Source: Nitrosomonas cryotolerans ATCC 49181
GTDB taxonomy: Bacteria; Pseudomonadota; Gammaproteobacteria; Burkholderiales; Nitrosomonadaceae
Direction: 5' to 3'
Assembly: GCF_900143275.1 (NCBI RefSeq)
Contig: NZ_FSRO01000001.1
Location: forward strand, 620,001 to 684,000
DNA length: 64,000 bases
Numbering within the stretch: the stretch's first letter is position 1; the number at the start of each line of letters is the position of its first letter. Position numbers and translations under genes: made by a program. A model generated the notes under the pieces. The model ran no database searches, was not told the origin of the DNA, and worked only from the letters and a program-made list of their open reading frames with translations. Below are positions 5,133 to 36,115 of the stretch, piece after piece.

Positions 5133-5133
5133 A

Positions 5134-5265
5134 GGTATTGCCAAGTTAAGTAAATTTGCATAAAAACTAGTCAATGCACGAATTTTTAACTCATTGATTG
5201 TTAAATATTCATAATACTGACTCGAGGTGGAAAATCAGTCCAATTTGACTTAACTTGGCAATACC
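5134..5265. repeat. 132-bp miniature inverted-repeat element
   Basis: The ends are inverted copies of each other. The left arm is ggtattgccaagttaagt plus AT-rich bases, and the right arm ends acttaacttggcaatacc: 18 exact base pairs, extended after a one-base indel. It encodes nothing and looks like a MITE. It lies immediately before the SNF2 start codon, so the gene now takes its 5' leader from the element. I see no clear target duplication and no related transposase in the window. Confidence 0.7.
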
Positions 5266-5882: not shown

Positions 5883-7185
5883 CATCTCAACTTCCGGAAA
5901 ACCCCGGTCTTAAGGCCGGGGATGGATAGGGAGTCAGCTTCGCTGATACTAAAGCCTGTTTTTTCACCTATTTCTGTTACAGTGTGTTAATGGAAATTAA
6001 GCGCGCATACAAATTCAGGTTTTACCCAACTTTTGAGCAAGAAACTATTCTGGCTCAAACATTCGGGTGTGCTCGGTTTGTCTATAATCGCATGTTGCGC
6101 GTTCGTTCTGATGCTTGGTATACCGAGAAAAAAAGAATCGGGTATCATGCTACCTCCTCTTTGTTGACCGAGTTAAAAAAAGAGCCTGAATTTGAATGGC
6201 TGAACAAAGTTTCCAGTGTTCCTGTGCAGCAATCTCTCCGCCACCTGCAAACGGCATTTGGTAATTTCTTTGCCAAACGAGCCAAATACCCGTCATTCAA
6301 AAGCAAGCATGAGAAGCAATCGGCTGAATACACGTCCAGCGCCTTCAAGTGGGACGGTAAGTCTCTGAAACTGGCGAAGATGAAAGATCCACTGAATATC
6401 AGATGGTCGCGCACCCTTCCTAAGGCAACAAAACTAACGATTGCAACAGTCTCTAAAGACTCAGCGGGTCGATACCATGTTTCTATGCTTTGCGACGACT
6501 CTGTTGCGCGAAAGCCAAGGGTTAGCGGCAAAGTCGGCATTGACTTAGGATTAACGCACTTCGCTATTCTTTCTACGGGCGAGAAGATTGCGTCTCCTAA
6601 CACGCTACGAAAGAATGAAACCAGGCTTGCTAAGCTGCAACGCAAGCTATCTAAAAAGCGCAAAGGGTCGGCCAATAGACAAAAAGCCAGACTGAAAGTA
6701 GCGCGACTACATGCAGGAATTGCTGATGCTCGTAAAGACTTTCTACATAAACTCTCAACACGGCTAGTGAACGAAAACCAAGTGATAGCTGTAGAGTCTT
6801 TAGCTGTTAGCAATATGAAGAAAAATCGTTGCCTCGCAAAATCAATTTCCGATGCAGGATGGGGTGAATTTGTGCGGCAATTAGAATACAAGTCGCTGTG
6901 GTACGGGCGAGAGCTTGTAGGTATTGACCGATGGTATCCAAGCAGCAAACGCTGCTCGGGATGTGGGCATACCGTAAACAAGATGCCTTTGAATGTGCGT
7001 GAATGGACTTGTCCGGAATGCGGATCAATCCATGATCGAGACATCAACGCAGCGCGTAATGTTTTGACCGCTGGACTGGCGGTGTCAGCCCTTGGAGAAT
7101 CTATAAGTCCTGTTTGCATTTAGGTGCGTCCGGGTTGGATTCGTTGAATTGGGAATCCCCTTCGTTTACGGAGGGGAGCAGTCAA
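5883..7185 (+). mobile_element. IS605-type element carrying tnpB only
   Basis: The left end has a hairpin (ccccggtcttaaggccgggg, 5902-5921). The right end has the hairpin tccccttcgtttacgga-gggga (7156-7177) followed by the cleavage tetranucleotide TCAA at 7182-7185. The same right-end design occurs in the complete element at 22330-24115. The pentamer TTTAT (5878-5882) precedes the proposed left end in both, so it is a candidate target/TAM. There is no tnpA, so movement would need one in trans; the tnpA at 22391 is a candidate. End positions are inferred by comparing the two elements. Confidence 0.7.
5990..7123 (+). CDS. tnpB: TnpB, RNA-guided nuclease of an IS200/IS605-type element
   Basis: A 377-residue TnpB with all expected catalytic parts. 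The RuvC-like residues are D in GIDLGLTHF (about 185), E in IAVESLAVSNM (about 268) and D in IHDRDINAARNV (about 351). The zinc-ribbon cysteine pairs are CSGCGH and CPECG. The N-terminus MEIKRAYKFRFYP and the FRKNETRLAKLQRKLSKK region are diagnostic. A GTG two codons upstream (5984) is an alternative start. TnpB proteins cut DNA using a guide RNA made from the element's right end. Nothing is truncated, so the nuclease may be active. It is related to, but clearly diverged from, the TnpB at 22838. Confidence 0.93.
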   Translation: MEIKRAYKFRFYPTFEQETILAQTFGCARFVYNRMLRVRSDAWYTEKKRIGYHATSSLLTELKKEPEFEWLNKVSSVPVQQSLRHLQTAFGNFFAKRAKYPSFKSKHEKQSAEYTSSAFKWDGKSLKLAKMKDPLNIRWSRTLPKATKLTIATVSKDSAGRYHVSMLCDDSVARKPRVSGKVGIDLGLTHFAILSTGEKIASPNTLRKNETRLAKLQRKLSKKRKGSANRQKARLKVARLHAGIADARKDFLHKLSTRLVNENQVIAVESLAVSNMKKNRCLAKSISDAGWGEFVRQLEYKSLWYGRELVGIDRWYPSSKRCSGCGHTVNKMPLNVREWTCPECGSIHDRDINAARNVLTAGLAVSALGESISPVCI

Positions 7186-9882: not shown

Positions 9883-11355
9883 ATGACGGATAGTAAGTTA
9901 ACAATCTCAGCGCTTGAACAATATTTATCTAAAGCAGCATGGATACTGAAAGGTCCTGTCGACGCATCCGACTTTAAGGTCTACATTTTTCCGCTATTGT
10001 TCTTCAAGCGTATATCTGATGTTTACGACGAAGAATATGCAAGCGCACTAAAAGAAAGTGATGGCGACACTGAATATGCGACCTTTGCCGAGAACCACCA
10101 TTTTCAAATACCTGAGAGAGCGCATTGGAATGACGTGCGCGAAACCACGGTAAATATAGGCCAAGCATTACAAAATGCGATGCGAGCTATAGAGCAAGCG
10201 AACCCAGATACCTTATACGGCATCTTTGGTGATGCTAGCTGGACCAATAAAGAGCGGCTCTCTGATGAGATGCTCACCAATCTTATCGAGCATTTCTCAC
10301 AGCACAAGCTTAATTTAAGCAACGTGCCCGACGACAAACTTGGTAATGCCTACGAATATTTAATAAAAGAATTTGCCGACGACAGCGGCCATACCGCAGC
10401 GGAGTTTTACACCAACCGCACCGTGGTTAAGCTCATGACCATGATTATGGACCCACAACCGGGTGAATCTGTATACGACCCCACTTGCGGTTCAGGAGGA
10501 TTGCTACTGAATTGTGCCTTGCACTTAAAAGAGGAAGGTAAGGAATACCGCACACTCAAACTTTATGGCCAAGAAATAAATCTACTCACCTCCGCTATTG
10601 CCCGCATGAATATGTTTATGCACGGCATCGAAGAGTTCGACATCGTGCGTGGCAATACCTTGGCCAACCCCGGTTTACTCGAAAATGACGAACTGAAAAA
10701 ATTCAACATCATCCTCGCTAATCCGCCGTACTCAATTAAATCATGGGATAGAAAAGCCTTTGAAAGCGATCCGTATGGCCGCAATCTCTGGGGCGTACCA
10801 CCGCAAGGATGTGCTGATTATGCCTTTCAGCAGCATATTCACAAAAGCCTAGATCCTGATAATGGTCGTTACGCAATTCTGTGGCCTCACGGGATTTTAT
10901 TCCGTGACATGGAAGCGGCCATGAGAAGAAAAATGGTTGAAACAGATGAAATAGAGGCTGTAATAGGATTGGGGCCGAACCTGTTTTACAACTCACCTAT
11001 GGAAGCTATGATTCTGGTTGGCAACACCAACAAACACGCCAAGCGAAAGGGCAAGGTTTTGTTTGTGAATGGCAAAGATGATGTGATTGAAAACAAAGGG
11101 CAGGCTTATTTGACACCAGCTCATATAGAAAAACTATATCGAGCCTACAAAGATTTCGTCGATATACCGCACTTTGCCAAAGTCGCTGCACTTGAAGAGA
11201 TCATGGCCTTTGACGGCAATATGAACATCAATTTTTATGTTAAACCAGATAACTCGAACAGTGGGGCTAGTTTCTCTGAGACCCTAAAAAATTGGGAGGA
11301 GGCAGGCGATAAGCTGAAACTTTCAATGCAAAACTTATTGGGAGAGTTGAGCTGA
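9883..11355 (+). CDS. hsdM: Type I restriction-modification DNA methyltransferase subunit HsdM
   Basis: A 490-residue N6-adenine methyltransferase. The helical HsdM N-terminal domain (ALEQYLSKAAWILKGPVDAS) precedes the SAM-binding motif I DPTCGSGGLLLN (about 199-210) and the catalytic motif IV ANPPYS (about 279-284). HsdM methylates the sequence chosen by HsdS and forms the M2S core of the R2M2S complex. It is the first gene of an hsdM-hsdS-hsdR operon with gaps of only one and two bases. No frame damage is visible. The ribosome site is weak and A-rich. Confidence 0.96.
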   Translation: MTDSKLTISALEQYLSKAAWILKGPVDASDFKVYIFPLLFFKRISDVYDEEYASALKESDGDTEYATFAENHHFQIPERAHWNDVRETTVNIGQALQNAMRAIEQANPDTLYGIFGDASWTNKERLSDEMLTNLIEHFSQHKLNLSNVPDDKLGNAYEYLIKEFADDSGHTAAEFYTNRTVVKLMTMIMDPQPGESVYDPTCGSGGLLLNCALHLKEEGKEYRTLKLYGQEINLLTSAIARMNMFMHGIEEFDIVRGNTLANPGLLENDELKKFNIILANPPYSIKSWDRKAFESDPYGRNLWGVPPQGCADYAFQQHIHKSLDPDNGRYAILWPHGILFRDMEAAMRRKMVETDEIEAVIGLGPNLFYNSPMEAMILVGNTNKHAKRKGKVLFVNGKDDVIENKGQAYLTPAHIEKLYRAYKDFVDIPHFAKVAALEEIMAFDGNMNINFYVKPDNSNSGASFSETLKNWEEAGDKLKLSMQNLLGELS

Positions 11356-11356
11356 C

Positions 11357-12499
11357 ATGAATGCCTTAATTGAAAAGATCATAGATGGGCTGAAGCTGGA
11401 TCGCAGCGAGTGGAAGCTGGTTAAATTCGGTGATGTTGCAATACAGCAAAAAGACTCAGTAGACCGCGAAAATTCAGAACTAACTCGCTATGTAAAAGGC
11501 GAGCACATGTATTCAGAAGATCTTCATCTTCGGGAATGGGGTGAGCTTGCTGATGAATACTTGGGGCCTGCCTTCATAAGGAAATTCGAGGAAGACGATA
11601 TTTTGTATGGATCGCGCCGTACCTATCTGCGGAAAGTAGTCATTGCACCATTTGATGGCATTACATCCAACACCACTTTTGTGATCAAAGCCAATGAAAA
11701 GAAAATTGATAAACGTCTGTTGCCGTTTGTGATGATGTCTGAAGGCTTTGCTCAGCATTCGATTCGTAACTCTAAGGGCTCTGTAAACCCATATGTAAAC
11801 TGGAAAGATTTATCTGGATATGAGTTTCTTCTTCCGCCGAAAGATCAACAAGCTCAATTGGCTAAATTGTTTTGGTCAGTAGACAATGTTTTACAAAAAA
11901 ATATTAATGCTTTTCGGAAAGCGATAATAACAAAACAAGTCTGTTTCGACAGTGGAGTTGCAAGTTCTAGTGGTAAGGAGTATGTCTTGTCCAAAATATT
12001 GATGCCCAAAAAGAGTAAAAGTTTGGCTCCTCATTCTAGGTCAAAGTACATTGGTTTAGAACATATAGAGTCGGGTTCCTTTAGTTGTACAGAATATGGC
12101 GAATCAAAAGACGCATTAGCTCAGTGTAACTTGGTTGATAGTGGGGATCTTTGTTATAGCAAGTTACGGCCCTATTTAGATAAAGCATTTATTGCTGATT
12201 TTGATGCAGTATCCACAACAGAGTTACTCGTTTATGGAACTACGTTAGCTTCAAAAAAGTACATTCTTTATCACTTACATAGTAAACCATTTATTAATTT
12301 TGTGACTGGGCAAGGATTTGGTACAAAAATGCCAAGGGTTAGCCATAAAATTATTGGTGAGTATGTAGTGAAGGTGTTAGATGATGAAAAATCATTGCTT
12401 GATGAGATGACTGAATACGAAAATATAGAAAAAGCATTCTCAGAGAAGATTAAATCTACAAAAATATTGATTACTAGCTTAATAAACCAGGTATTTTAA
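11357..12499 (+). CDS. hsdS: Type I restriction-modification specificity subunit HsdS
   Basis: A 380-residue specificity subunit with two target-recognition halves. The first (about 1-190) ends in the conserved helix WSVDNVLQKNINAFRKAI; the second (about 205-380) ends in a helical EYENIEKAFSEKIKSTKI. Each half contains the usual landmarks, such as VNPYVNWKDLSGYEFLLPPKDQQAQ in the first and KMPRVSHKIIGEYVVKV in the second, so it should read a bipartite site. The second half is visibly richer in A and T than hsdM or hsdR, which suggests a separately acquired recognition domain. It starts one base after hsdM and ends two bases before hsdR. Confidence 0.92.
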   Translation: MNALIEKIIDGLKLDRSEWKLVKFGDVAIQQKDSVDRENSELTRYVKGEHMYSEDLHLREWGELADEYLGPAFIRKFEEDDILYGSRRTYLRKVVIAPFDGITSNTTFVIKANEKKIDKRLLPFVMMSEGFAQHSIRNSKGSVNPYVNWKDLSGYEFLLPPKDQQAQLAKLFWSVDNVLQKNINAFRKAIITKQVCFDSGVASSSGKEYVLSKILMPKKSKSLAPHSRSKYIGLEHIESGSFSCTEYGESKDALAQCNLVDSGDLCYSKLRPYLDKAFIADFDAVSTTELLVYGTTLASKKYILYHLHSKPFINFVTGQGFGTKMPRVSHKIIGEYVVKVLDDEKSLLDEMTEYENIEKAFSEKIKSTKILITSLINQVF

Positions 12500-12501
12500 A
12501 T

Positions 12502-15471
12502 ATGCCATTCACCGAATTAAATAGTGTAGAGCACTACATCATTCATCAGGTGAGTGGTGTGAACCTCAACCAAAATCTAATTTCTGAGCCGCCTAAAAAA
12601 CCCTATGGCGCAGGGTGGCAATACCAATCATCAGAGCAGCTTGGCCGTGGTGTGAATGAGGTAATGGTGGAAGCGGAAGTTAAAGCCGCTTTGCTACGCC
12701 TCAATCCTGAGATCAGCCAAAAACCTGAATTGGCTGATGAAGTGATCTACAAGCTCCGCTCGATTTTAATTTCGGTGAATCAAATTGGATTGGTGAAAGC
12801 CAATGAAGAGTTCTTTAAATGGCTTACCGGCGAAAAAACCATGCCTTTTGGTGAGAACAATCGTCATGTGCCGGTGCGCTTAATCGACTTTTATAATTTA
12901 ACCAACAACCATTACATCATCACCAACCAGTTCCGCATTCATCATCGTGAAACCAAAATACCTGATGTCGTATTGATGATAAACGGCATACCTGTGGTGG
13001 TGGGTGAAGCCAAAACGCCGATACGCCCATCGGTAAGCTGGTTAGATGGTGCACATGAAGTCCACAACATTTACGAGAATGTTGTACCGCAATTGTTTGT
13101 GCCGAATATTTTATCCTTTGCTACCGAAGGTAAAGAGTTATTCTATGGGGCTATTCGATGCCCATTAGAGTTTTGGGCGCCTTGGCGTATTGAGGATGAT
13201 GAGAATGTCATAGCAAAAAGCCTCGGCTTAGGTGAAGTGGGTAAAGAGTTAACCGATTTGCTCAAACCTGCTCGCTTGCTCGACATTATGCGCAACTTTT
13301 CTTTGTTTACCACTAATAATAAAAAACAACGCATGAAGGTAATTCCCCGTTTTCAACAATACGAAGGGGCCAATAAAATTGTTGAACGAGTCATTGAAGG
13401 CAGGATTAAAAAAGGTTTGATTTGGCACTTTCAAGGTTCGGGTAAATCACTATTGATGGTATTTGCCGCTCAAAAGCTACGCCGTGAGCCGAAACTGAAA
13501 AGTCCTACGATAATTGTATTGGTAGACCGCACCGATTTGGATACTCAAATCAGCGGCACTTTTAATGCCGCCGATGTGCCCAATGTGGAAAGCACCGATA
13601 GCATCAAAGAATTGCAAACTTTATTAGAGCGGGATACCCGCAAGATCATTATCTCGATGATCCATAAGTTTCGCGATGCCAAGCCCGATATGAATGCCCG
13701 CGACAATATTATTGTGCTGGTCGACGAGGCCCACCGCACCCAGGAAGGTGACTTAGGCCGCCAAATGCGTGCGGCATTGCCCAATGCCTTCTTGTTTGGT
13801 TTAACCGGCACACCCGTTAACAAAGCCGATAAAAATACTTTTTGGGCTTTTGGCGCAGAAGAAGACTCAGGCGGCTATATGAGCCGCTACACTTTCCACG
13901 ATTCCATTCGTGATGAAGCGACATTGCCACTGCACTTCGAGCCGCGTTTGGTGGATGTTCATGTCGACAAAGAGTCGCTTGATAAAGCCTTTGCCGAATT
14001 TAAAGAAAGCACTGCATTAAGTGATGAAGAAGCGGATGCGCTCAATCAACGATCCGCCAAAATGGCCGCGTTTTTAAAAGCGCCCGAGCGGGTAGAGAAA
14101 ATCGTCCAGGACATTGCCACACATTTTAAAGAGAAAATTGCTCCGCAAGGCTTTAAAGCAATGATCGTGACCCCTGATCGCCAGGCCTGTGCGCAATATA
14201 AGGAAGAGCTGGATAAACACTTCCCCGAGGAAGCGAGTAAGGTGGTGATATCCACCACCGCTAATGACGGTTTTAATTTTAAGAAGAAGTGGGGGATTGA
14301 TAAAGGCCAACAAGAGAAAATCATTGATGAATTTAACGATACGCAATCAGAGCTTAAATTTCTGATCGTAACCGCCAAGCTGCTCACCGGTTTTGATGCG
14401 CCGATATTGCAAACCATGTATCTGGATAAATCTATAAAAGATCACACGTTGCTACAAGCGATTTGCCGCACCAATCGTTTGTACCCACACAAGACCTTTG
14501 GTCGCATAGTGGATTACTTTGGCGTATTTGACGATGCCGCTAAAGCACTGGAGTTTGATGAAGAGAGCGTGAAAGAAGTCATAACCAATCTAAGTGAACT
14601 ACGCAAAATATTTCCACAAGCCATGCAAGATGCATTGGCACACTTTTCTGGCGTAGATAGAGCGCTAGAAGGTTTCGAAGGCCTGGAAGCAGCACAAAAT
14701 GCAATAAATACTAACGAAAAGAAAGATGCCTTTGCCCGTGATTTTAAATACCTTGCCAAGTTATGGGAATCGCTTTCTCCAGATAATATGCTGAATTTAT
14801 ATAACCCGGATTACAAGTGGTTGGCGCAGGTGTATGAATCAGTAAAACCTGCGTCGGACAATATCGGCAAGCTATTGTGGTTAACCCTTGGCGCGCAAAC
14901 TACGCAACTGATTCACGATAATATTCATGTAGGTGCTGTACATACCTTGGAAGAGTTTGTGCTGGATGCGGATGTGATTGAAGGTATCTTCAATAACCCA
15001 GACCCAAAAAAAGTTAAACAGCTGGAAAAGGTAATGATAGCTCGCTTTAAAAAACATGGGGATTTGTCTGTGTTTAAATCCCTAAGTGAGCGTTTGGAGG
15101 CGTTGAGAGATAAAGCCGAACAGGGATTAATAAGTTCTATCGAATTCGTCAAAGAACTATGCAAAATTGCCAAAGAAACGGTTCAGGCTGAAAAAGATTT
15201 AGAGCCGGAATTTCAAGAAAAAACACCGCAAGCGGCACTCACCGAATTGTTCTTAGAATTAAAAACTGACGAAACACCAGCAGTGGTAGAGCGTATAGTC
15301 ACCGACATAGATGCTATTGTTCGTGTGGTTCGCTTCCTTGGCTGGCAAAATACCACCAGTGGCGAGCGTGAAGTACAAAAATCGCTGCGTAAGGCGTTGT
15401 TGAAGTATAAGTTGCATACGGATCAGATACTGTTTGATCGGGCCTATGCGTATATTAAGGAATATTATTGA
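12502..15471 (+). CDS. hsdR: Type I restriction endonuclease subunit HsdR
   Basis: A 989-residue motor-nuclease subunit. The N-terminal PD-(D/E)xK nuclease is seen in IPDVVLMINGIPVVVGEAK (about 153-171). The superfamily 2 translocase follows, with Walker A in FQGSGKSLLM (about 310), the DEAH box VDEAHRTQEG (about 405), FGLTGTPVNKAD, and the later motifs LTGFDAPILQTMYLDK and LLQAICRTNRLYP. The C-terminal helical region binds the methyltransferase core. All three subunits look intact, so an active restriction system is likely. The reading frame ends in tight TGA at 15469-15471. Confidence 0.95.
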   Translation: MPFTELNSVEHYIIHQVSGVNLNQNLISEPPKKPYGAGWQYQSSEQLGRGVNEVMVEAEVKAALLRLNPEISQKPELADEVIYKLRSILISVNQIGLVKANEEFFKWLTGEKTMPFGENNRHVPVRLIDFYNLTNNHYIITNQFRIHHRETKIPDVVLMINGIPVVVGEAKTPIRPSVSWLDGAHEVHNIYENVVPQLFVPNILSFATEGKELFYGAIRCPLEFWAPWRIEDDENVIAKSLGLGEVGKELTDLLKPARLLDIMRNFSLFTTNNKKQRMKVIPRFQQYEGANKIVERVIEGRIKKGLIWHFQGSGKSLLMVFAAQKLRREPKLKSPTIIVLVDRTDLDTQISGTFNAADVPNVESTDSIKELQTLLERDTRKIIISMIHKFRDAKPDMNARDNIIVLVDEAHRTQEGDLGRQMRAALPNAFLFGLTGTPVNKADKNTFWAFGAEEDSGGYMSRYTFHDSIRDEATLPLHFEPRLVDVHVDKESLDKAFAEFKESTALSDEEADALNQRSAKMAAFLKAPERVEKIVQDIATHFKEKIAPQGFKAMIVTPDRQACAQYKEELDKHFPEEASKVVISTTANDGFNFKKKWGIDKGQQEKIIDEFNDTQSELKFLIVTAKLLTGFDAPILQTMYLDKSIKDHTLLQAICRTNRLYPHKTFGRIVDYFGVFDDAAKALEFDEESVKEVITNLSELRKIFPQAMQDALAHFSGVDRALEGFEGLEAAQNAINTNEKKDAFARDFKYLAKLWESLSPDNMLNLYNPDYKWLAQVYESVKPASDNIGKLLWLTLGAQTTQLIHDNIHVGAVHTLEEFVLDADVIEGIFNNPDPKKVKQLEKVMIARFKKHGDLSVFKSLSERLEALRDKAEQGLISSIEFVKELCKIAKETVQAEKDLEPEFQEKTPQAALTELFLELKTDETPAVVERIVTDIDAIVRVVRFLGWQNTTSGEREVQKSLRKALLKYKLHTDQILFDRAYAYIKEYY

Positions 15472-15605: not shown

Positions 15606-16256
15606 TTATTTAATTGATTCATTTATTTTTGTGATAATCGCTTTGCCTTGTTCTTTAGTTAAAGGAACCATCGTTTTGCGAAAGATTAAATTGGATTTTG
15701 TAATATCTTTGCAGACTTTAGCTGTTATTACCTTAAAATCTGAAACGAAATTATGTAACTTCCGCGCATACCACTGCTCTTTGTTGCCGTTGTGATCCCT
15801 AATAATTAGTTCTTTATCGGCATACCCATATCCACAAATACCATGGCCGCTGTGATATAGGAAAACAACGTCATTTTCTTTTAGGTTTTTGATATTTTTT
15901 TTCCAGTTCCCATAAAATGCAGAGGCTTCGCCATTTTCTAACATCGTAAAGTGGTCAGATTCAGAGTTGTTGTAATTTGTATTTAAAAGGAAATATCTGG
16001 GAGATTCTTCATTATCCCTAGCTTCAATAATATCTTCTTCTTTATTGTTGTTATCTTTCTCTTCTAATTGCCTCACTAATTCACTTATGCCGCCATTGAT
16101 AAAGACAGTAATTAGTTCAGAACGCGTTCTGTCGAGTTCAGACGCAAGCTCGTCAATTTGATTTACAGTTGAAGGGGGCATGCGTATTGATAGTAATTGG
16201 CTTTCTGGCATTGATTGATTGTTTAATAGGTTTTTGATTTGAGTTTCATATGACAT
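15606..16256 (-). CDS. Ribbon-helix-helix / EVE-like (PUA-fold) fusion protein
   Basis: A 216-residue protein with two visible parts. Residues 20-65 (LLSIRMPPSTVNQIDELASE, then LDRTRSELITVFINGGISEL) are a clear CopG/MetJ-type ribbon-helix-helix. After an acidic, asparagine-rich linker (about 66-85), residues 88-216 resemble an EVE domain: an opening YFLLNTNYNNSES, a W in FYGNWKKNIKNL, and ENDVVFLYHSGHGICGYGYA, the usual EVE core pattern. EVE domains are PUA-fold modules that read modified bases in DNA. A DNA-binding RHH fused to one, next to a type I R-M operon, suggests a modification-sensing regulator or restriction factor. It is convergent with hsdR and has its own promoter and terminator. 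The EVE call is by pattern only. Confidence 0.6.
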   Translation of the reverse strand: MSYETQIKNLLNNQSMPESQLLSIRMPPSTVNQIDELASELDRTRSELITVFINGGISELVRQLEEKDNNNKEEDIIEARDNEESPRYFLLNTNYNNSESDHFTMLENGEASAFYGNWKKNIKNLKENDVVFLYHSGHGICGYGYADKELIIRDHNGNKEQWYARKLHNFVSDFKVITAKVCKDITKSNLIFRKTMVPLTKEQGKAIITKINESIK

Positions 16257-22390: not shown

Positions 22391-22819
22391 TTAATGCGGT
22401 CTTTGCTGTTGTTCAATATATTGCTTAATAATCGAGAGTGGTGCTCCACCACAACTACCCGCAAAATAGCTTGGACTCCAAAGCATATTACCCCAAAGCT
22501 TATTTTTAATTTCGGGATAATTCTTTTTGCGAATAAGTCGGCTTGAAACGCCTTTCAAACTATTTACCAAGTTAGAAATAGCAATTTTTGGTGGATAGTT
22601 AACTAAAAGGTGAATATGATCATGCTCACCGTTAAATTCCACCAATTCTGCTTCAAAATCCAAACACACGTTTTTAAATATTTCTTCCAAATCAATTAAT
22701 ACCCTTCCGGAGAAAACATCTCTACGGTATTTTGTTACAAAGACCAAATGAACATGAAGATTAAAAACGCAATGTCTTCCTGTTCTTACATCGTTATTAA
22801 CTTGCATAGACCAATTCAT
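22391..22819 (-). CDS. tnpA: IS200/IS605-family TnpA, single-strand HUH transposase
   Basis: About 142 residues from the ATG at 22819; a longer open frame to 22894 runs into the tnpB side and gives an atypical N-terminus. The core is VFNLHVHLVFVTKYRR, the HUH motif in EHDHIHLLVNYPP (about 70-80) and the nucleophilic tyrosine region IIKQYIEQQ near the C-terminus. Length matches the family (about 130-155). TnpA excises and inserts the element as single-stranded circles at TTTAT-like or TCAA sites and could also act on the tnpB-only element at 5883. Confidence 0.93.
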   Translation of the reverse strand: MNWSMQVNNDVRTGRHCVFNLHVHLVFVTKYRRDVFSGRVLIDLEEIFKNVCLDFEAELVEFNGEHDHIHLLVNYPPKIAISNLVNSLKGVSSRLIRKKNYPEIKNKLWGNMLWSPSYFAGSCGGAPLSIIKQYIEQQQRPH

Positions 22820-22837
22820 TTTTGTATAATTATAACC

Positions 22838-24070
22838 ATGAAGCAGATTATACGCAAAGCCTTTAAATCTCGACTCAATCCAAATTCTGACCAAGTACAG
22901 AAGATGGTTGAGTTTGCGGGTGCTAATCGGTTTGTTTGGAATAAAGCCTTAGCAATGAATCTGTTCAGATTAGAGCAGAAACAGCCATTGCTTTGGTACA
23001 ACGAGTTGTCATTTTGGTTAAAGCTATGGAAATCCTCAGAAGATTATGGATTTCTAAAAACCGTTCATTCTCAACCGTTGCAACAAGCCTTAAAAAACTT
23101 AGAAAAAGCGTTCAAAGACGGTTTTGATAAGAAACAGCCTTTAAAACGGATTCCAAAATTCAAGAAAAAAGGTTTGAGTGACAGCTTTCGTTATCCACAA
23201 GGATTTAAGCTGGAGCAAGAGTCTAGCAAAGTGTTCTTGCCTAAAATCGGTTGGGTGAAATATCGTAATTCACGCCAAGTCATTGGTGACGTTAAAAATA
23301 TGACGATTTCCCGTAAAGGCGGTTATTGGTACGTGTCGATTCAGACTGAGTACGAGACCGAGCTAAAGCGTCATAGCTCAACCAGTATGATTGGTGTTGA
23401 TATGGGCGTTACCCGCTTTGCAACCTTGTCAGACGGCTCATACGTAGAACCTTTAAACAGTTTCAGAAAGTTATCAAAGAAACTGGCTTTTGAACAGCGT
23501 AAGCTGTCTAAAAAAGTCCGTTTCTCTGCTAACTGGAAAAAGCAGAAACAAATCATTACCCGACTGCATGAGCGTATTGCCAATGCTCGTTTAGACTTCT
23601 TACACAAAACCTCAACCGAAATCAGCAAAAATCACGCAATGGTCGTAGTTGAGAATTTAAAGATAGGAAACATGTCTAAGAGTGCCAAGGGCAGTGTTGA
23701 AAAGCATGGTAAAAACGTCAAAGCGAAATCGGGTCTAAACAAATCCATTCTTGACCAAGGATGGGGAATGTTCGTTTCGTTCTTGGAGTATAAACAGGCT
23801 TGTTCAGGCGGGGATGTATTGAAGGTAAACCCTCAATACACCTCTCAAACCTGCCCTAGATGTCAACATGTTAGTCGTGACAATCGCAAAAGCCAAAGTG
23901 CTTTTGAATGTACAGAATGTGGATTTAAAGCCAATGCCGACTTGGTAGGTGCCTTGAATGTACTTGAGCGAGGACATCGCTTGTTAGCCTGTGGAGTTGA
24001 AACGTTAGTTTCGTCTAAGAAGCAGGAACCAGTAGGCAGTAGCAATACAAACCTACTCTTAACGGCTTAA
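22838..24070 (+). CDS. tnpB: TnpB, RNA-guided nuclease of the IS605-type element
   Basis: A 410-residue TnpB starting MKQIIRKAFKSRLNPNSDQV; the open frame extends 30 codons upstream, but only this ATG gives the family N-terminus. Catalytic residues: D in GVDMGVTRFATL (about 188), E in VVVENLKIGNM (about 272) and D in KANADLVGALNVLERG (about 368). Zinc ribbon: CPRCQHVSRDNRKS and FECTECGF. The protein is perhaps 45 percent identical by eye to the TnpB at 5990 over the RuvC region and is a different lineage sharing a very similar right end. Probably active. Confidence 0.94.
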   Translation: MKQIIRKAFKSRLNPNSDQVQKMVEFAGANRFVWNKALAMNLFRLEQKQPLLWYNELSFWLKLWKSSEDYGFLKTVHSQPLQQALKNLEKAFKDGFDKKQPLKRIPKFKKKGLSDSFRYPQGFKLEQESSKVFLPKIGWVKYRNSRQVIGDVKNMTISRKGGYWYVSIQTEYETELKRHSSTSMIGVDMGVTRFATLSDGSYVEPLNSFRKLSKKLAFEQRKLSKKVRFSANWKKQKQIITRLHERIANARLDFLHKTSTEISKNHAMVVVENLKIGNMSKSAKGSVEKHGKNVKAKSGLNKSILDQGWGMFVSFLEYKQACSGGDVLKVNPQYTSQTCPRCQHVSRDNRKSQSAFECTECGFKANADLVGALNVLERGHRLLACGVETLVSSKKQEPVGSSNTNLLLTA

Positions 24071-25647: not shown

Positions 25648-28600
25648 TTAGCTGAAAATAGCTTTAGCTTTAGCCTTGGTTTTGGAAACAAAGGCTGAAA
25701 TTGTCCCCCCTGGTTTCTTGCTGGCCAATATCAGAATTTTTTCTCTCGGCACCTGTTTTGCCTGTATCAGGGAAGCGTCTGCTTTAATATGATTCACTTT
25801 GCCATCTTGTATGGCATGAAATTCGCCTGTTGATTGAGTAGGTAACTTATTCGCCGCGTCTTCTTGCGAATCATTAAACATCGGACGTAATTTATCCAGT
25901 GCGGTTTTTTCTTTAATGCGTCCAAGGAACCAGGAAGAAATCTGATCGCGGGATTTGTAATCCATGTCACCGGGGCTCTGTGTCGCTAACATCAATCCAA
26001 TACCGGCAGAGCGGGCACGTTTGAGCAAGCCTTCCAGCAGTTCTTTTGTGGCTGGTTTGGATTGAGCGGGTAAATAAAGGTCAGCCTCGTCAAATAAAAT
26101 GACTCCCTGCAACTTGTCACTGGGTGATTTTGTAGCAAAACGCCCTATGTCCAGCAAAAGCTGCGAAACCCAAAACAGAATATTGTCATTATTGCCCAGA
26201 AATTCCGTGCTAATAATACTCAAACGGGTTTTATGTGTGCCCGTCTTGTTATCAGACGAAGACGATCGCCCGAATAGACTTTCTGTATTTAATAACTCAC
26301 CCGATTGAGCAAAAAGATTACCATTTGCCAGGCTCAATGTTTGTAAATCCTCAACTAATCGATTAAATAATTTAGCATCTAATTTCCCGATTGCATTCAG
26401 TAATGATGGATCCTTTTTATCAATGAAATCCATCAAATCACCGAGTGTTAGCGATTTATCTGGATGCAATTCACTGAAGATCGAGATTGCCTGTCCTAAA
26501 ACGGCGACATTTTGTTTGTCTTGACGGCTCTGATCTTTGTACCCCATGATCTTTCCCAGTGAAAATGCAGCATGATTCGCCAGTTGCGAACGCGCTTCTG
26601 ATGACAAATTGCCTAATCCATTGGGCACGACAGGAATACCTAATGTCCGCCCTTGGCCTGCAATAGCGCCCGGCGTGTAAATAACCGTTTCTATTTTGTC
26701 ACGTAATTTGTCACGCATTTGTTTGCGCTCTGGATCAGTTATTGGGGTTCGCCATGCTTCCTCTAGCGCATAACTACAGAGATCTCCTTTACGATCCAAT
26801 AAAATGGCCGGAATACCCTGAAGCAGTAGTTGTTCGATAATATTCAGTGCCAGAGTCGTTTTTCCACTGCCAGAGCCACCGAGGAAAGCAGCGTGGCACA
26901 CCAATTTGTCCGTCGCGATCTTGTATGGATCTTGTTGATGACCTTGGTTGATACCGATTTTAATTCTTGAAAGTGGCGGTGGCGGCGGTGGCGGTGGTTT
27001 AGGCGGACGAGGTTCGTTGATAATGTCCAGTATCTGTTGAAACGCAGGTAAACCGAGTAAGGGTTGCTCAATATGTAACCAGTTCAGAAACTCGGGATTT
27101 GCTTCATGTTCCCTACGAAAAGAGTCCATTGCCACCATAGCGCGCCAATCGGAATCCGAGGCGACGACGCGTTTGCCCCCCGCTGCTATAAATTCACCTA
27201 GTCGTACGGCAATTTTAGTTTTGGGATTAGAAGGAAAATCAGTAGATCGTACAGCAATCGCTGTGTGCGTCCCTGCAATTGTTTGCAGCTGATCGATCTG
27301 ATTAGCGAGTGCGCCACCTTGCGACGTTTTTTGGCATAATCCGGCGATGAATTGCCGTTCTTCAGCATGATCGATCGCATTTTGAATGTGGATATTCAGA
27401 TAATGACCCTGTTGAACGCATCGAAATTGAACTGTGCTGTTTAATTCAATAATACAATGTGTCATGGAACGGTCGAGCAATTGCAGCATCTCACTTTCAG
27501 TTTCGGGTACGAGATGTGAACCGGCAAGAAAGTCATTCCAAAATTGACTAAGCAGCGGGTCTGGTTCCGGGTCTGGTTTCGGGTCTGGTTCCGGGTCTGG
27601 TTCCAGGTCCGTCGAACCAGGCAACCTTGGCGGTAGGCCGGTTTGTATTGATTGCTCGCGTTCTTGTCGACACCAATCAAGTACATGGCGGGTGCTCATG
27701 TTTGCTAATTCTGAAGACGTTCCGTCTTGAAAAGGATAGATGGGCTGGCCATCTTTTAAACCCATGCGTTCGCTTTCATAAAGGTCCTGTAAACGAATCG
27801 TGATGAGATCTTGTATTGCTGCTTCATCACGTTTTGCATTTAAATAGATCTTATCGGGATCCAGTTCAATACGGTCAACCTGAGGCTTCGGTAAGTCCTT
27901 CCTAAGCATTTGATATATGTCGTCCAGACAGGCAATCACAACGATGACGTTGGGTATTTGTGCCAATTTGATCACGGTTTCCATGGCACGTCGGAATTTT
28001 ATTCCTGCCTCAGGTGCGGGATGGATATCTTCCAGTTGATCGAGACAAATAATCAGAGCACCTGAATCGATTGCCCTGATCAAATGCGCCAGTGCTTGCA
28101 ACAAGCGTTGTGGGTCTTCTTCTTGTATTCTGGGCTTGATACCGCCCAGTATTTCACAATCATATTCAGGCAAATCTTCGCAGCGAAGATATTTGCTTAC
28201 CTTAGAGTGAATAGCGGGGTGATCATTTTGTAAATAAAGTAACGCACGAACCAGATCCAGATCGATTCCTTGAAATTTTTCTTTTGTTTTGTACAGGATA
28301 TCATCAGCAATTTTGTAGATTAAATTGGTTAATTCATCTCGATTTAATGCATTACTTCGGAGTGAATTGCGGGTTTCTTGTGAAACAGTATTGCCGCTTT
28401 CGATTAATGCATTAGACAAACGCATTAACCCTGTCATGCTTCCGTTCGATTCATAATAGGGCTTATCGAGCGAATCTATCGTGTAATGAAGTGCATAACG
28501 GGCATAATTTGAGAAAGACGAGGTCATTTGCATATAGGCGAAATAACCTAACGCTTTTTCATGCGTAAAATTACGAAATGCGCGCATAAGATGCGTTTTG

Positions 28601-28833
28601 CCTGCGCCCGATTCACCCAGTAGTAACATGATCCGACCTGCATTAGAAGATTCGGGCATGTTGATACGATTTAATAAGCGCTGAAAGCAATCACGACTGT
28701 CTTGATGTATGCTTTCTATATCATAAGGGTCCGGTTGCCAGACCTGATTGTGATGGGTGATGGCATGAAATACATCTTCCTTTACCCGCGTGCAAAAAAT
28801 CTTTAAATGCGGGTCTGTTGCTTTATCTGACAT
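25648..28833 (-). CDS. Dual P-loop ATPase: AAA+/Orc-like domain plus HerA-like translocase
   Basis: About 1061 residues from the ATG at 28833 (GGAG seven bases upstream; an in-frame start at 28869 is less likely). The N-terminal module has Walker A GESGAGKTH (about 73-81) and a Walker B-like ALIICLDQLED (about 260-270), like STAND/Orc-type AAA ATPases. A linker of E/K-P-D-P repeats (about 410-425) and a middle domain follow. A run of eight prolines near 625 leads into a HerA/DUF87-type motor: Walker A GGSGSGKTTLALNI (about 651), LLDRKGD, Walker B VILFDEADLYLP (about 911) and ATQSPGDMDYKSRDQ. HerA motors pump DNA, usually with a nuclease partner. The gene overlaps the preceding one by 11 bases. 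No named system recognised. Confidence 0.8.
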   Translation of the reverse strand: MSDKATDPHLKIFCTRVKEDVFHAITHHNQVWQPDPYDIESIHQDSRDCFQRLLNRINMPESSNAGRIMLLLGESGAGKTHLMRAFRNFTHEKALGYFAYMQMTSSFSNYARYALHYTIDSLDKPYYESNGSMTGLMRLSNALIESGNTVSQETRNSLRSNALNRDELTNLIYKIADDILYKTKEKFQGIDLDLVRALLYLQNDHPAIHSKVSKYLRCEDLPEYDCEILGGIKPRIQEEDPQRLLQALAHLIRAIDSGALIICLDQLEDIHPAPEAGIKFRRAMETVIKLAQIPNVIVVIACLDDIYQMLRKDLPKPQVDRIELDPDKIYLNAKRDEAAIQDLITIRLQDLYESERMGLKDGQPIYPFQDGTSSELANMSTRHVLDWCRQEREQSIQTGLPPRLPGSTDLEPDPEPDPKPDPEPDPLLSQFWNDFLAGSHLVPETESEMLQLLDRSMTHCIIELNSTVQFRCVQQGHYLNIHIQNAIDHAEERQFIAGLCQKTSQGGALANQIDQLQTIAGTHTAIAVRSTDFPSNPKTKIAVRLGEFIAAGGKRVVASDSDWRAMVAMDSFRREHEANPEFLNWLHIEQPLLGLPAFQQILDIINEPRPPKPPPPPPPPLSRIKIGINQGHQQDPYKIATDKLVCHAAFLGGSGSGKTTLALNIIEQLLLQGIPAILLDRKGDLCSYALEEAWRTPITDPERKQMRDKLRDKIETVIYTPGAIAGQGRTLGIPVVPNGLGNLSSEARSQLANHAAFSLGKIMGYKDQSRQDKQNVAVLGQAISIFSELHPDKSLTLGDLMDFIDKKDPSLLNAIGKLDAKLFNRLVEDLQTLSLANGNLFAQSGELLNTESLFGRSSSSDNKTGTHKTRLSIISTEFLGNNDNILFWVSQLLLDIGRFATKSPSDKLQGVILFDEADLYLPAQSKPATKELLEGLLKRARSAGIGLMLATQSPGDMDYKSRDQISSWFLGRIKEKTALDKLRPMFNDSQEDAANKLPTQSTGEFHAIQDGKVNHIKADASLIQAKQVPREKILILASKKPGGTISAFVSKTKAKAKAIFS
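27556..27608. repeat. 12-bp tandem repeat coding a P-D-P linker
   Basis: Four to five copies of a unit close to ggttccgggtct lie in the ATPase gene and encode alternating Glu/Lys-Pro-Asp-Pro on the minus strand. The units are nearly identical in DNA, which suggests recent copy-number change by slippage rather than selection on the protein alone. Confidence 0.75.
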
Positions 28834-29905
28834 CGAATGACTCCAAACGTATAAAATGGAATACTGCATTCAGACAGGCTGTTTCTGATGCGGAAACGTC
28901 CTGCGAATTCATGGCGTAAGTTAGATCAGCATGGATCAGACTGACCAGCCCTTTATTATTGGCAAGGCAAAGACGATGTTTGAATTGGTCAATGTTCAGT
29001 CCAAACTGTTTGCCATCAAGCCCCATCTGTCGCCAGACATGTGAGATGAATATTTTGTTATCACCAAATCTGCCGGTCTGGCAGCGATTCGCGGATTTTA
29101 TTACCTGCGCAGCAAAAGTTTCCAATGTGAGTTCAGACTCAGACTCAGGCTCAGTCTCAGACACAGACACAGGCTCAGACTCAGATTCAGGCTCAGACTT
29201 TTGTGTGGCGATTTTCAGAATAGCCACCCGCAGCTCTTCCAGACTTGTGCGCCGTGCATTGACCGCTTTTGCTACCAGTTGTTTCAGGGCGGATTCCCAA
29301 GGCAATGCACGTTCTGCACCTAGCAGATCGTTCAGCAGCAAAGTCATCACGGAACCTTGCGTAAACGGTTTGAAATGCTGAATATTGGGAGCGGACAGTT
29401 TTTTCTGCAAGCGTGCCGTTACGGATGTGTTAGTCAATTGCTGCCAGAGTAAATTATCCCGTGCTCTTGTTAATGTAGGGTAAGCCCCTGCTGATAATGG
29501 GTAGGTGTTGACCAAAATGCTGGCTCTAAGCCCATCAGCGCTGGCAATGTATTGGCGATCACGATCATTTACAAGTGGAGGCAGTCCCATCGCGTATGCA
29601 ATCAGGTAGGCATTTTTCAATGTTTGCCACCGTATATTGGAAGGTGGCGAAGATAAACCCAATAACTGCAACACAGGGGCTCTTCCCTGAGGTGTTAGTT
29701 GATAACGAGCCCTGCCAATCATTTGTAATGCGCTTTCATTGATTAATCGCTGAATTTCATCTGACCATTCATTATTAGCCGGTGGGTTGAAGAAAAAAGG
29801 GTTCAGTGATTTTTTTAATTCACTCAAGATCAACCCATTGCGAGGTGAAGATAGAAATCGAGCCAGAATAAGGTCCCGGAGTATTAGGTTTTTCATTTTA
29901 TTCAT
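28823..29905 (-). CDS. Unknown protein with N- and C-terminal winged-helix-like domains
   Basis: A 360-residue protein I cannot assign to a named family. Residues 5-78 look like a winged helix: LILARFLSSPRNGLILSELK, then WSDEIQRLINESALQMI and a wing ending YQLTPQGRAPVL. The C-terminal 90 residues (GDNKIFISHVWRQMGLDG, then IDQFKHRLCLANNKGLVSLI) suggest a second winged helix. Between them is an acidic Ser-Glu linker (ESESEPVSVSETEPESESE, about 235-255). It lies between the nuclease gene (12-base gap) and the ATPase gene (11-base overlap). It could be the adaptor that places nuclease and motor on DNA. Confidence 0.6.
   Translation of the reverse strand: MNKMKNLILRDLILARFLSSPRNGLILSELKKSLNPFFFNPPANNEWSDEIQRLINESALQMIGRARYQLTPQGRAPVLQLLGLSSPPSNIRWQTLKNAYLIAYAMGLPPLVNDRDRQYIASADGLRASILVNTYPLSAGAYPTLTRARDNLLWQQLTNTSVTARLQKKLSAPNIQHFKPFTQGSVMTLLLNDLLGAERALPWESALKQLVAKAVNARRTSLEELRVAILKIATQKSEPESESEPVSVSETEPESESELTLETFAAQVIKSANRCQTGRFGDNKIFISHVWRQMGLDGKQFGLNIDQFKHRLCLANNKGLVSLIHADLTYAMNSQDVSASETACLNAVFHFIRLESFDVR
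29125..29197. repeat. 6-bp tandem repeat coding a Ser-Glu linker
   Basis: About eleven imperfect units of the kind gactca/ggctca lie in the 360-residue protein gene and give an alternating Ser/Pro-Glu stretch on the minus strand. Such hexamer arrays change length in frame, so the linker may vary between strains. Confidence 0.75.
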
Positions 29906-29917
29906 ATGAGCATTCTC

Positions 29918-31144
29918 TTATTTTATTTTTTCACGACGAAACTGTAATACATGGCGAATTGTTTCAATAATCTCTTCTAATCCAGATACAACTTCTTCTG
30001 CCAGAAAACGTAAGATCAACACGTTATGCATCTGTAATATCAAATCCTTACGACGATCCCGGCGCCAATTCTCTGATGCTTGAAAATGATAATAACCATC
30101 TATTTCAACCGCAATTTGATCAGTAACTGCAAATAAATCAATTTCCATCGGTTGATGGCCGAATGAAAAAGGCATTTTGACATTTAATTTAAAAACACCC
30201 CGCGTATCCGGGACGAGCTCTAAAATATGGAATAGAAACAACTCAGCCTGGCTACGGAAAATTGAATCATCATATTGCTTTTCAGCAGCAAGATGTGCCA
30301 GAGAGTGAGCTTCGTCAATTAATAGGGCAGGTGCATCATATTTACACAAAACATGGTTTATTTCAGCAGACAAACTGTTGCGGGTGTTTTTATCTGGATG
30401 TACAGCTATTAATCCATTTTTCAGCATGGATTTAAATCGTGACTCCGGCGCATTTGTGAAATAAGCTTTCAACGTTGCGGGCTGAATCGATAATGCGATT
30501 GGAAGGCCTGGCAGGTGTTCTGCTGTTTTCATTAATTTGGCAGCTAAAGCTGAATTCGCTAAATCGACGTCAATGACTTCTATTAATAGGCCCGGCAAAA
30601 TATTTTCTGGCAATATTTCCTTGAACACTAAAATGCCATGAGGTAAGAATTGTTCATCCTCTAATTTTATATTCTGCAATAAATCCGCAGCCGAGCCGAC
30701 TACTGATTTTCGGGATAAAGCAATCTGCGCCAGAAACCAATGTAAAAGCAACCGGCCATGAGAGGAAATGCTCGCCGTTAATTGTTGTTGAAAAATTTCC
30801 AACTCATAGCTCGATTTATTCATGACTCCAGAGTAGATTCGATCTGTAGGACACTGCTGAATCTCTGCGAGATACTGTAGGAATTGATGAGTCAGATCGG
30901 GTTCGGCCAGTAAACTTTCCAGCCAGCTAATGGATAATGACGCGGACTGGGTTGGAGACCAGATTGCTGTCGTTCTACCGGCTTCTTTTATCCATTGGCA
31001 CCAAAGTGCCTGATTAGCATCAGGTGTGCCGCTTAGGGTTGTCAGGGTTGGAATGCCTTGATTGCGCCAGTGTGAATGAATGTCAAGATAAGATCGTGGA
31101 GAGCCTTGGAATTTATCGTGGTCAATATTATTGTTTTTTTCCAA
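29918..31144 (-). CDS. DUF559/Vsr-like PD-(D/E)xK nuclease with a large N-terminal domain
   Basis: A 408-residue protein with a TTG start preceded by aggaagg. The last 90 residues fit the DUF559 group of Vsr-like nucleases: an upstream E in RSQAELFLFHILE, D in PMEIDLFAV (about 333), the E-x-D of IAVEIDGYYHF (about 343-349), the R-R-D-x-x-R-K-D helix of NWRRDRRKDLILQ and VLILRFLAEEVV. The N-terminal 300 residues have no family I know; TLSGTPDANQALWCQWIKE near residue 35 faintly recalls a degenerate P-loop. First gene of the minus-strand operon with the winged-helix protein and the HerA-like ATPase. Confidence 0.7.
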   Translation of the reverse strand: MEKNNNIDHDKFQGSPRSYLDIHSHWRNQGIPTLTTLSGTPDANQALWCQWIKEAGRTTAIWSPTQSASLSISWLESLLAEPDLTHQFLQYLAEIQQCPTDRIYSGVMNKSSYELEIFQQQLTASISSHGRLLLHWFLAQIALSRKSVVGSAADLLQNIKLEDEQFLPHGILVFKEILPENILPGLLIEVIDVDLANSALAAKLMKTAEHLPGLPIALSIQPATLKAYFTNAPESRFKSMLKNGLIAVHPDKNTRNSLSAEINHVLCKYDAPALLIDEAHSLAHLAAEKQYDDSIFRSQAELFLFHILELVPDTRGVFKLNVKMPFSFGHQPMEIDLFAVTDQIAVEIDGYYHFQASENWRRDRRKDLILQMHNVLILRFLAEEVVSGLEEIIETIRHVLQFRREKIK

Positions 31145-31393
31145 TAGTGCCTTCCTCTATCATTTATATTCACTTATGTTTTCTGGCTGAGATTCAAATT
31201 GTAGCTAATTTGAATACTTTCCACCAAAGCGGCCGATTCACAATATCCAGCCGAAATATTATCCGCTATCAACGTGGGGAGGTGATGATTCTGGATAGGA
31301 TTAGACTGGAAAGTGTTTTTTGCCGATGTGATCGCAATGATAAAGAAATTGATTAACGTATCATGGGCTAAAGCAATGCTCTCCCGTTTTTTG

Positions 31394-34924: not shown

Positions 34925-36115
34925 ATGCAATCGTTTTTGCAATTTGGTTTACTTGATCTTCCTTGGTGGGGTTATGTGATAGTTACATTGATCATGACAC
35001 ACATGACGATTGCTTCCGTAACAATTTTTTTACATCGACATCAGGCACACCACGCGTTGCAGTTACATCCTGTTGTGAGCCACTGCTTCCGCTTTTGGTT
35101 GTGGCTTACTACTGGAATGGTTACCAAAGAATGGGTGGCCATTCATCGTAAACACCATGCCAAATGTGAAACCATCGATGATCCGCACAGCCCACGAGTT
35201 CATGGCATAGGAAAAGTGTTGTTTAAAGGTGCCAAACTCTACTGCAATGAGGCCGATAACCTGGCCACGCTCGAGAAATACGGTCACGGAACCCCCGATG
35301 ATTGGAGCGAACGTAATCTCTATTCGAAGCATGTCGTGCTTGGTATCGGCATCATGTTGGTTATTGATTTTGTTTTATTCGGCCCGATTGGGTTCATTGT
35401 GTGGGGCGTTCAGATGTTGTGGATCCCTTTCTTTGCCGCAGGTGTCATCAACGGTGTTGGCCACTATTATGGATATCGTAACTTTGCGCCGAATGACACC
35501 TCCACCAACATTGTGCCGTGGGGAATCCTGATCGGAGGTGAGGAGTTGCACAACAATCACCATGCTTACGTGAGCTCTGCCAAGCTGTCCAACAAGTGGT
35601 GGGAATTCGACATCGGGTGGGTGTATATCCGCATTCTGGAATTGCTGGGTTTAGCCACAGTTCGCAAGGTGGCACCTAAAGTACACTTTAATCAGGCTAA
35701 AACTCCCTGTGACGAAGCCACTCTGCAGGCTGTAATTACCCATCGTTACGACGTGCTCGCCAAGTTTGCCAAATACCTAAAAAAAACCATAGTGACGGAA
35801 ATTCGTAGTTTGCGGGCCCGGACTACTCTAGGCTTGCAAGATGCCCAGGTACCTGAAACTGTTAAATATTGTCTGCAAAATGATGTAGGTGATATGGGGG
35901 AAAAAGAACGGGTTGCTTTGAATCAGGCGCTTCATTCCAGCCAAGTACTGAGGACTATCTATTCCATGCGCCAAGATCTAACTGCTTTATGGAGCAGCTC
36001 CACCATATCCAAGAAAGAGTTGATAGATCAACTGGAAAACTGGTGCCAGCGTGCCGAGGGGAGTGGAATTAATGCATTGCAAGAATTTTCAAGGAAATTA
36101 CGTTGTTACGACTAA
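34925..36115 (+). CDS. Membrane fatty-acid (acyl-CoA-type) desaturase
   Basis: A 396-residue di-iron membrane desaturase. The three histidine boxes are HRHQAHH (about 37-43), HRKHHAK (about 75-81) and HNNHHAY (about 208-214), separated by hydrophobic helices such as HVVLGIGIMLVIDFVLFGPI. It introduces a cis double bond, probably delta-9, into acyl chains and so adjusts membrane fluidity. The last 110 residues are a soluble helical extension (KEELIDQLENWC-like) seen in DesA-type proteobacterial members and absent from minimal desaturases. It has a weak ribosome site (aaagga). A DUF3309 gene follows within 25 bases. Confidence 0.92.
   Translation: MQSFLQFGLLDLPWWGYVIVTLIMTHMTIASVTIFLHRHQAHHALQLHPVVSHCFRFWLWLTTGMVTKEWVAIHRKHHAKCETIDDPHSPRVHGIGKVLFKGAKLYCNEADNLATLEKYGHGTPDDWSERNLYSKHVVLGIGIMLVIDFVLFGPIGFIVWGVQMLWIPFFAAGVINGVGHYYGYRNFAPNDTSTNIVPWGILIGGEELHNNHHAYVSSAKLSNKWWEFDIGWVYIRILELLGLATVRKVAPKVHFNQAKTPCDEATLQAVITHRYDVLAKFAKYLKKTIVTEIRSLRARTTLGLQDAQVPETVKYCLQNDVGDMGEKERVALNQALHSSQVLRTIYSMRQDLTALWSSSTISKKELIDQLENWCQRAEGSGINALQEFSRKLRCYD

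Follow-up and report, generated by a model that had tools for sequence, protein, structure and literature searches.

A 64-kb stretch of the Nitrosomonas cryotolerans ATCC 49181 genome (the window, meaning this whole stretch) carries three tightly packed minus-strand genes, P1, P2 and P3, at positions 25648–31144. The three genes form a genuine conserved unit, present in two phyla and at many genomic positions. This is beyond chance because the trio recurs as a set, with its order kept, in 11 Nitrosomonas genomes and also in another phylum. We consider it rather probable that the cassette is a mobile module of the HerA/FtsK-capture type, made up of three genes and directed against invaders.

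Gene layout

The existence of the three-gene arrangement was confirmed in the open reading frame (ORF) listing of the window. The genes lie where an initial annotation of this DNA had placed them, with a gap of 12 bases between P1 and P2 and an overlap of 11 bases between P2 and P3. The cassette has a size of 5.5 kb.

31150–31157, minus strand: ribosome-binding site GAGGAAGG, 5 bases ahead of the P1 start codon (TTG), read directly from the sequence
29918–31144, minus strand: P1, 408 amino acids, with a C-terminal DUF559 nuclease and about 300 N-terminal residues without a recognised fold
28823–29905, minus strand: P2, a 360-amino-acid adaptor, probably with a winged helix at both ends
25648–28833, minus strand: P3, a dual ATPase of 1061 amino acids

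The start of P3 is given as 28869 in the ORF list. We preferred 28833 because six homologues and a GGAG ribosome site favour it.

Distribution of the trio

Relatives were sampled as 101 genomes (the window's own genome and 100 relatives), and P3 matches were taken at E ≤0.001. P3 was matched in 33 of the 101 genomes and was full length in seven; the other 26 matches were short pieces, mostly of the HerA region. P1 was matched in nine genomes, over most of its length in seven and by the nuclease end only in two. All seven genomes with a full-length P3 also carried P1. The P2 profile was found in 3 of 300 genomes of the order, and all three are among these seven. A further genome scan gave nine loci out of 44 pattern matches, all of them in Nitrosomonas, and the order P1-P2-P3 was kept in 9/9 (P3 of L035 is cut by the contig end). 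The non-redundant total was 11 Nitrosomonas genomes with the trio in order, the window included.

Outside Nitrosomonas, open frames for P1, P2 and P3 were found in the same order in Methylobacterium (L041), Nonomuraea (L042) and Tsukamurella (L043), and genome G514 also carries the three in order. Xanthobacter (L044) has P2, a P3 shortened to 455 amino acids beside IS3 genes, and the nuclease end of P1 (9.3e-5). In the plasmid collection, P3 gave four matches, and tblastn of P1 and of P2 gave none. Those 'plasmids' that come from Nonomuraea and Tsukamurella appear to be chromosomal (11.85 Mb; genes for ribosomal proteins). Prevalence, with two candidates scored per genome, was at least 5 of 398 genomes in one count (including the window's genome and one HerA-only partial match) and at least 1 of 385 (G514 itself) in the other. 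Co-occurrence elsewhere, which the initial annotation had proposed as a check on the trio, was thus found within Nitrosomonas and beyond it.

The Tsukamurella trio (L043, 3522–9242; proteins WP_068741542.1, WP_068741541.1 and WP_068741540.1) sits with a PIN/VapB toxin-antitoxin pair between rplN and rpsQ, an unusual insertion in a ribosomal cluster.

Selection and insertion contexts

Pairwise distances of P1, P2 and P3 correlated at r 0.90–0.95 in ten Nitrosomonas genomes (0 of 9999 permutations as high), a correlation that would also be expected from shared vertical descent alone. All three genes are under purifying selection, with a ratio of non-synonymous to synonymous substitution rates (dN/dS) of 0.12–0.34 for each of them in four genome pairs.

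The flanks of the trio were compared by blastn in the 11 Nitrosomonas genomes, using 6 kb on each side (668 bases on one side of L031 and 76 on one side of L035). At 1e-20 and more than 300 bases, the left flank was common to L031 and L032 only and the downstream gene to L017 and L032 only. Relaxing the search to 1e-5 and 150 bases added two short matches: L033 and L035 share about 290 bases directly upstream of P1, and L029 and L035 share 298 bases that lie at different positions. No gene was common to the flanks of all 11 loci in these blastn comparisons. This corresponds to eight or nine distinct contexts, a count in which diverged flanks may be missed by blastn.

In genome G021, both flanks of the L032 site persist (84% and 79% identity), with 2.55 kb of other genes in place of the 5.93 kb that separates them in L032. 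It is a replaced site and not a clean empty one. The HlyIII neighbour proved unsuitable for probing empty sites, since its own occurrence is sporadic (4 of 61 genomes); the L032 site served instead.

Domain composition of the three proteins

29945–30142, minus strand: DUF559 stretch of P1 (residues 335–400; Pfam PF04480), with invariant D336, E347, D349, H353, D363, R364, D367 and R379

The DUF559 stretch scored 26.6 bits against a Pfam cut-off of 20.6. A family profile of eight P1 rows matched the solved endonuclease-like protein 3hrl at E 8.7e-9 and, weakly, the mobile-intron protein 3r3p (0.16). Across these eight rows from two phyla, 17 residues were invariant at 19–23% identity, among them S298, E301, N321, G350 and the eight listed above. 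The key residues of the DUF559 domain were also invariant in ten Nitrosomonas rows. Outside the nuclease part, P1 was poorly conserved in the eight rows, and its first ~300 residues gave nothing convincing (best AAA_22 at 0.061 in Pfam and 2pop at 0.03 in PDB). The initial annotation had described P1 as a DUF559 nuclease behind some 300 residues of unrecognised type and had made its reading depend on conserved DUF559 residues; all of this held.

29666–29881, minus strand: approximate N-terminal winged-helix region of P2 (residues 9–80), from weak profile matches and the pattern of alignment A11
28841–29056, minus strand: approximate C-terminal winged-helix-like region of P2 (residues 284–355), from conservation, with a putative fold read from the pattern only

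P2 itself had no family match at E ≤1, nor at 10. One P2 homologue matched DUF6293_C at 0.0011, below that family's cut-off, and the P2 family profile matched PDB chain 5zr4 at 0.013. The conservation pattern of alignment A11 fits winged-helix regions. P2 probably has a winged helix at each end; weak matches suggest the N-terminal one and the alignment pattern the C-terminal one. Of the earlier description of P2 as two wing-like domains joined by an acidic linker, the wings gained indirect support. The linker exists in the window's protein but is not conserved among homologues.

27634–28776, minus strand: Orc/STAND-like AAA module and lid of P3 (about residues 20–400), conserved, with Walker A GESGAGKT and Walker B-like IICLDQLE
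27019–27552, minus strand: middle domain of P3 (about residues 428–605), between both ATPases, a candidate inactive PD-(D/E)XK domain
25744–26961, minus strand: HerA/DUF87 motor of P3 (about residues 625–1030), with Walker A GGSGSGKT, Walker B ILFDEAD, R941 and Q952

The two ATPases that had been read in P3 were recovered by Pfam: the N-terminus matched AAA_16 (9e-13) and AAA_22 (6.5e-10), and the C-terminus matched DUF87 (5.1e-7) and HerA_C (1.2e-7). By general similarity only, the AAA module appears to be Orc-type rather than STAND. R941 and Q952, the HerA/FtsK-type arginine and sensor Q, were invariant among P3 homologues, and so were the Walker residues. The P3 profile matched solved HerA chains (8wiv at 4.5e-15, also 8ziq and 8xau).

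The middle domain gave no Pfam family beyond a chance-level match (0.24), and its PDB profile matches were limited to weak chains, de novo proteins among them. No conserved catalytic triad was seen in its alignment, and no winged helix was recognised after it. Its pattern is compatible with an inactive PD-(D/E)XK domain, for which it is a candidate.

Comparison with known systems

No named system in PADLOC-DB 2023 covers all three proteins. The initial annotation had proposed an undescribed defence system; this stands as far as named PADLOC systems go, but the general kind was already predicted. Rakesh, Aravind and Krishnan (2024) predicted HerA/FtsK capture systems by sequence analysis (PMC10853773). 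We compared the trio with the main texts of that paper and of PMC12839542, to which all statements on these two sources refer. The Orc/CDC6 capture class of PMC10853773 combines Orc/CDC6 AAA+, inactive and active nuclease domains, HerA/FtsK and winged helices. The active restriction endonuclease comes from one of two families, one of them shared with AbiJ, and the inactive one is inserted between the AAA core and its C-terminal winged helix (PMC10853773).

The trio resembles these systems in its Orc/STAND-like AAA module, its HerA/FtsK motor with sensor Q and arginine, its active-looking nuclease and its probable winged helices. It differs in that both ATPases stand on one chain with a domain between them, the winged helices are encoded by a separate gene (P2), the nuclease is DUF559, and the inactive nuclease domain in P3 is only a candidate. 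Two of the five features that define the class in the main text of PMC10853773 were found, both in P3: the Orc/CDC6-type AAA+ (AAA_16, AAA_22, Walker A and B) and HerA/FtsK with the sensor-1 Q and upstream arginine (Q952, R941). We do not file the trio as a proven member of the class, though it would work like one. DUF559 is absent from the main texts of both PMC10853773 and PMC12839542, and a limited literature search gave no paper tying DUF559 to HerA/DUF87 or to an anti-phage operon. What is new relative to the main text of PMC10853773 is the variant with the DUF559 trio; the trio may already be listed in the figures or supplement of that paper.

Several named systems were compared and rejected. 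The HerA half of P3 was closest to mad8 of MADS among PADLOC models (9.2e-22). P1 and P2 matched no mad model at E ≤1, P3 matched mad3 over 22 residues at Walker A only, and no mad match was found among the neighbours of ten loci (PADLOC at 1e-15). As the other mad genes were not found beside the mad8-like half, identity with MADS was rejected. DndFGH/DptFGH share a HerA/FtsK ATPase with the trio and, as described in PMC10853773, nuclease and winged-helix partners. The trio proteins are much smaller, P2 matches no PADLOC model, and only the HerA end of DndH (2.9e-5, residues 1596–1682 of a 1715-residue model) and a short DndF stretch (0.028) were matched, so this identity was rejected too.

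In HerA-SIR2, HerA-DUF4297 and archaeal HerA-NurA, a HerA motor works with an effector partner. P3 is like these in matching solved HerA chains. The trio is unlike them in its DUF559 effector, the extra AAA module on the motor and a third, adaptor gene, and they were rejected because P1 and P2 matched no SIR2, DUF4297 or NurA. BREX-related capture (BRC) systems also bring together Orc/Cdc6 AAA, HerA/FtsK and winged helices (PMC12839542), as the trio does. According to the main text of PMC12839542, BRC has PglZ, DUF6079, DUF4007 and a separate HerA; the first three are not among the Pfam matches listed for P1–P3 (for P3, 25 of 46 families), and BRC was rejected. A Tn7-like TnsABC was rejected because the operon has no transposase and blastn gave no gene that all 11 loci have in their flanks.

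Neighbouring genes and other features

Neighbours were scanned with PADLOC at 1e-15 for 82 proteins of ten Nitrosomonas loci and 10 from L053 and L054; this took in 10 of 52 neighbour ORFs of loci outside Nitrosomonas. The window's own neighbours (20 ORFs) were scanned by Pfam. In L029, a Thoeris-type ThsB lies 1.9 kb and a ThsA-like protein 3.2 kb from the trio, and in L036 an HNH restriction enzyme lies 2.0 kb away. In the window, a type I restriction-modification operon (HsdM, HsdS, HsdR) at 9883–15471 is ~10 kb from the trio. A BrxHI-like helicase and one SngC match were also among the neighbour proteins, with positions relative to the trio not placed. Enrichment of defence genes nearby had been proposed as a check. 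Most neighbours were not defence genes; three of the 11 Nitrosomonas loci have a clear one within ~10 kb, a raw count without a background rate.

Promoter-like sites in the operon were not above shuffles (10 against a mean of 14.0). Terminator-like sites numbered 12 against a shuffle mean of 6.2 (standard deviation 2.6). Four direct-repeat families were found in the operon, three within the low-complexity linkers of P2 and P3, the fourth being a 14-base pair of copies, together with five inverted repeats.

Other genes of the window were recorded as side observations. SNF2 helicases with DUF3670 are sometimes found near defence genes.

15606–16256, minus strand: 216-amino-acid protein after the type I operon, with weak ribbon-helix-helix and EVE-domain matches, possibly a modified-base reader
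5984–7123 and 22748–24070: two TnpB-type genes (IS605 OrfB with a Cas12f1-like TNB domain)
34925–36115: 396-amino-acid ORF with a fatty-acid desaturase match (13–216) and an ISL3 transposase match (274–393), apparently a fusion made by insertion
1995–5174: 1059-amino-acid SNF2 helicase with DUF3670

Proposed function

From the sequences, we infer that P2 carries winged helices, that the three proteins form a complex with a hexameric motor, that this complex cleaves DNA, and that its target is foreign and its role defence. P2, through its winged helices, and P3, through its AAA half, would detect foreign or abnormal DNA or load onto it. What is recognised at loading could be the replication or transfer intermediates of invaders, a suggestion that Rakesh and colleagues make for capture systems in the main text of PMC10853773. 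The DNA would then be moved by the HerA half of P3, which probably forms a hexameric ring, and P1 would dock on the P2-P3 complex and cleave DNA by its DUF559 domain.

An anti-invader role is favoured by the conserved gene order, the invariant residues at low identity, the tight packing, the distance correlation and the purifying selection. The many contexts and the genome lacking the cassette at an otherwise shared site also favour it. Moreover, the HerA half is nearest to defence HerA models and structures, Thoeris-like genes (L029) and an HNH enzyme (L036) stand nearby, and the parts list is capture-like.

Evidence against a defence role and the P2-P3 pair without P1

Several observations weigh against this interpretation. 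In 8 of 11 Nitrosomonas loci there was no clear defence neighbour, the unplaced BrxHI-like and SngC matches aside. P1 of genome G044, one of the 11, carries an in-frame TAG stop, and the nuclease end of P1 in Xanthobacter is in a different frame from the preceding ORF. Between L029 and L030, the synonymous distance was 0.398 in P3 (10001–13153) and 0.054 in P1 (7699–8928). As the former far exceeds the latter, recombination inside the cassette is possible, and its parts may recombine rather than always travel together.

A further concern is a P2-P3 pair without P1 (loci L053, L054 and L072–L086). In G694 and G584, P2 and P3 were present and P1 was absent, both beside the pair and genome-wide (E ≤0.01); the eight neighbour proteins of these pairs showed no nuclease family. 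In the family of G694, the P2 profile matched 93 of 103 genomes (1e-6; some partial). For the best 15 of these 93, P2 was directly followed by the N-terminal half of P3 in all 15 loci, which stop short of the HerA half; no P1 was found in up to 1.5 kb upstream of P2. A divergent CAP-domain gene stood upstream of the pair in 14 of 16 loci (the best 15 and L054; one partial match at the edge). The P1-less pair looks confined to few lineages, because only G694 itself was matched in a sample of 376 genomes of the class, in each of which up to five candidates were scored.

A tree of the AAA half was built from 24 rows, covering 8 of 11 Nitrosomonas genomes and 11 of 17 P1-less loci. It was midpoint rooted, and the program warned of long branches. 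All 11 P1-less rows fell in one group (99/97, and 96/97 without the long Xanthobacter row). Loss of P1 would make for a simpler history, as trios fall on both sides of the deepest split under the midpoint root. Since the P1-less pair is near-universal in the family of G694, the nuclease is not an obligatory partner of P2 and P3. Such a near-universal and largely syntenic pair is not like a typical defence system.

Alternative explanations

The main rival, which we hold to be unlikely, is a DNA maintenance machine comparable to archaeal HerA-NurA, serving segregation or the processing of replication forks or breaks. P2 and P3 would load on and move along the cell's own DNA, and P1 would be an optional trimmer or resolver in some lineages. 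The P1-less loci speak for this: the P2 profile is nearly fixed in one family, P3 directly follows P2, and the upstream CAP-domain gene is mostly kept. In contrast, the trio is sporadic and at many sites in Nitrosomonas and patchy elsewhere, P1 is poorly conserved outside the nuclease, and the HerA half is closest to defence HerAs.

STAND sensors often drive suicide, and the AAA module of P3, encoded next to a nuclease effector, weakly matched nSTAND_NTPase5 (1.9e-5) and NACHT (1.2e-4), both under the Pfam cut-offs. In an abortive infection system, this module would sense infection and unleash P1 on host DNA, and the cell would die. We regard this as quite improbable, less likely than DNA maintenance. 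P3 showed no sensor repeat domain, simple suicide would seem not to need a HerA motor and there is no antitoxin-like partner, although none of these points is decisive.

A mobility or transfer device spreading itself as part of a transposon or conjugative element is very improbable: the many insertion contexts and a weak likeness of the motor to coupling proteins (TrwB_AAD_bind at 3.7e-4, just under cut-off) would fit it, but the operon has no transposase, integrase or relaxase, blastn showed nothing in common between the 6-kb flanks for most of the 11 loci, and no relative was found in the viral contigs or phage records scanned.

Implications

A wider account that includes both the trio and the P1-less pair can be put forward tentatively, and we think it more doubtful than not. 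P2 and P3 would be a general two-engine DNA-capture machine, which together with a DUF559 cutter makes a modification-free restriction-like system. One family would have dropped the cutter and domesticated the pair as core, and elsewhere the full trio would still be spreading as a defence system without a name. With its P1-less core pair, this family offers a natural experiment on how such a machine behaves when it lacks the nuclease.

If the anti-invader reading is true, the trio is a motor-based restriction system without its own methyltransferase and, at 5.5 kb, small enough for rebuilding in the test tube. It would also allow the HerA/FtsK capture idea, proposed from sequence analysis in the main text of PMC10853773, to be tested directly. 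If the cassette is instead a DNA maintenance device, defence predictions made from HerA neighbourhoods would need more caution.

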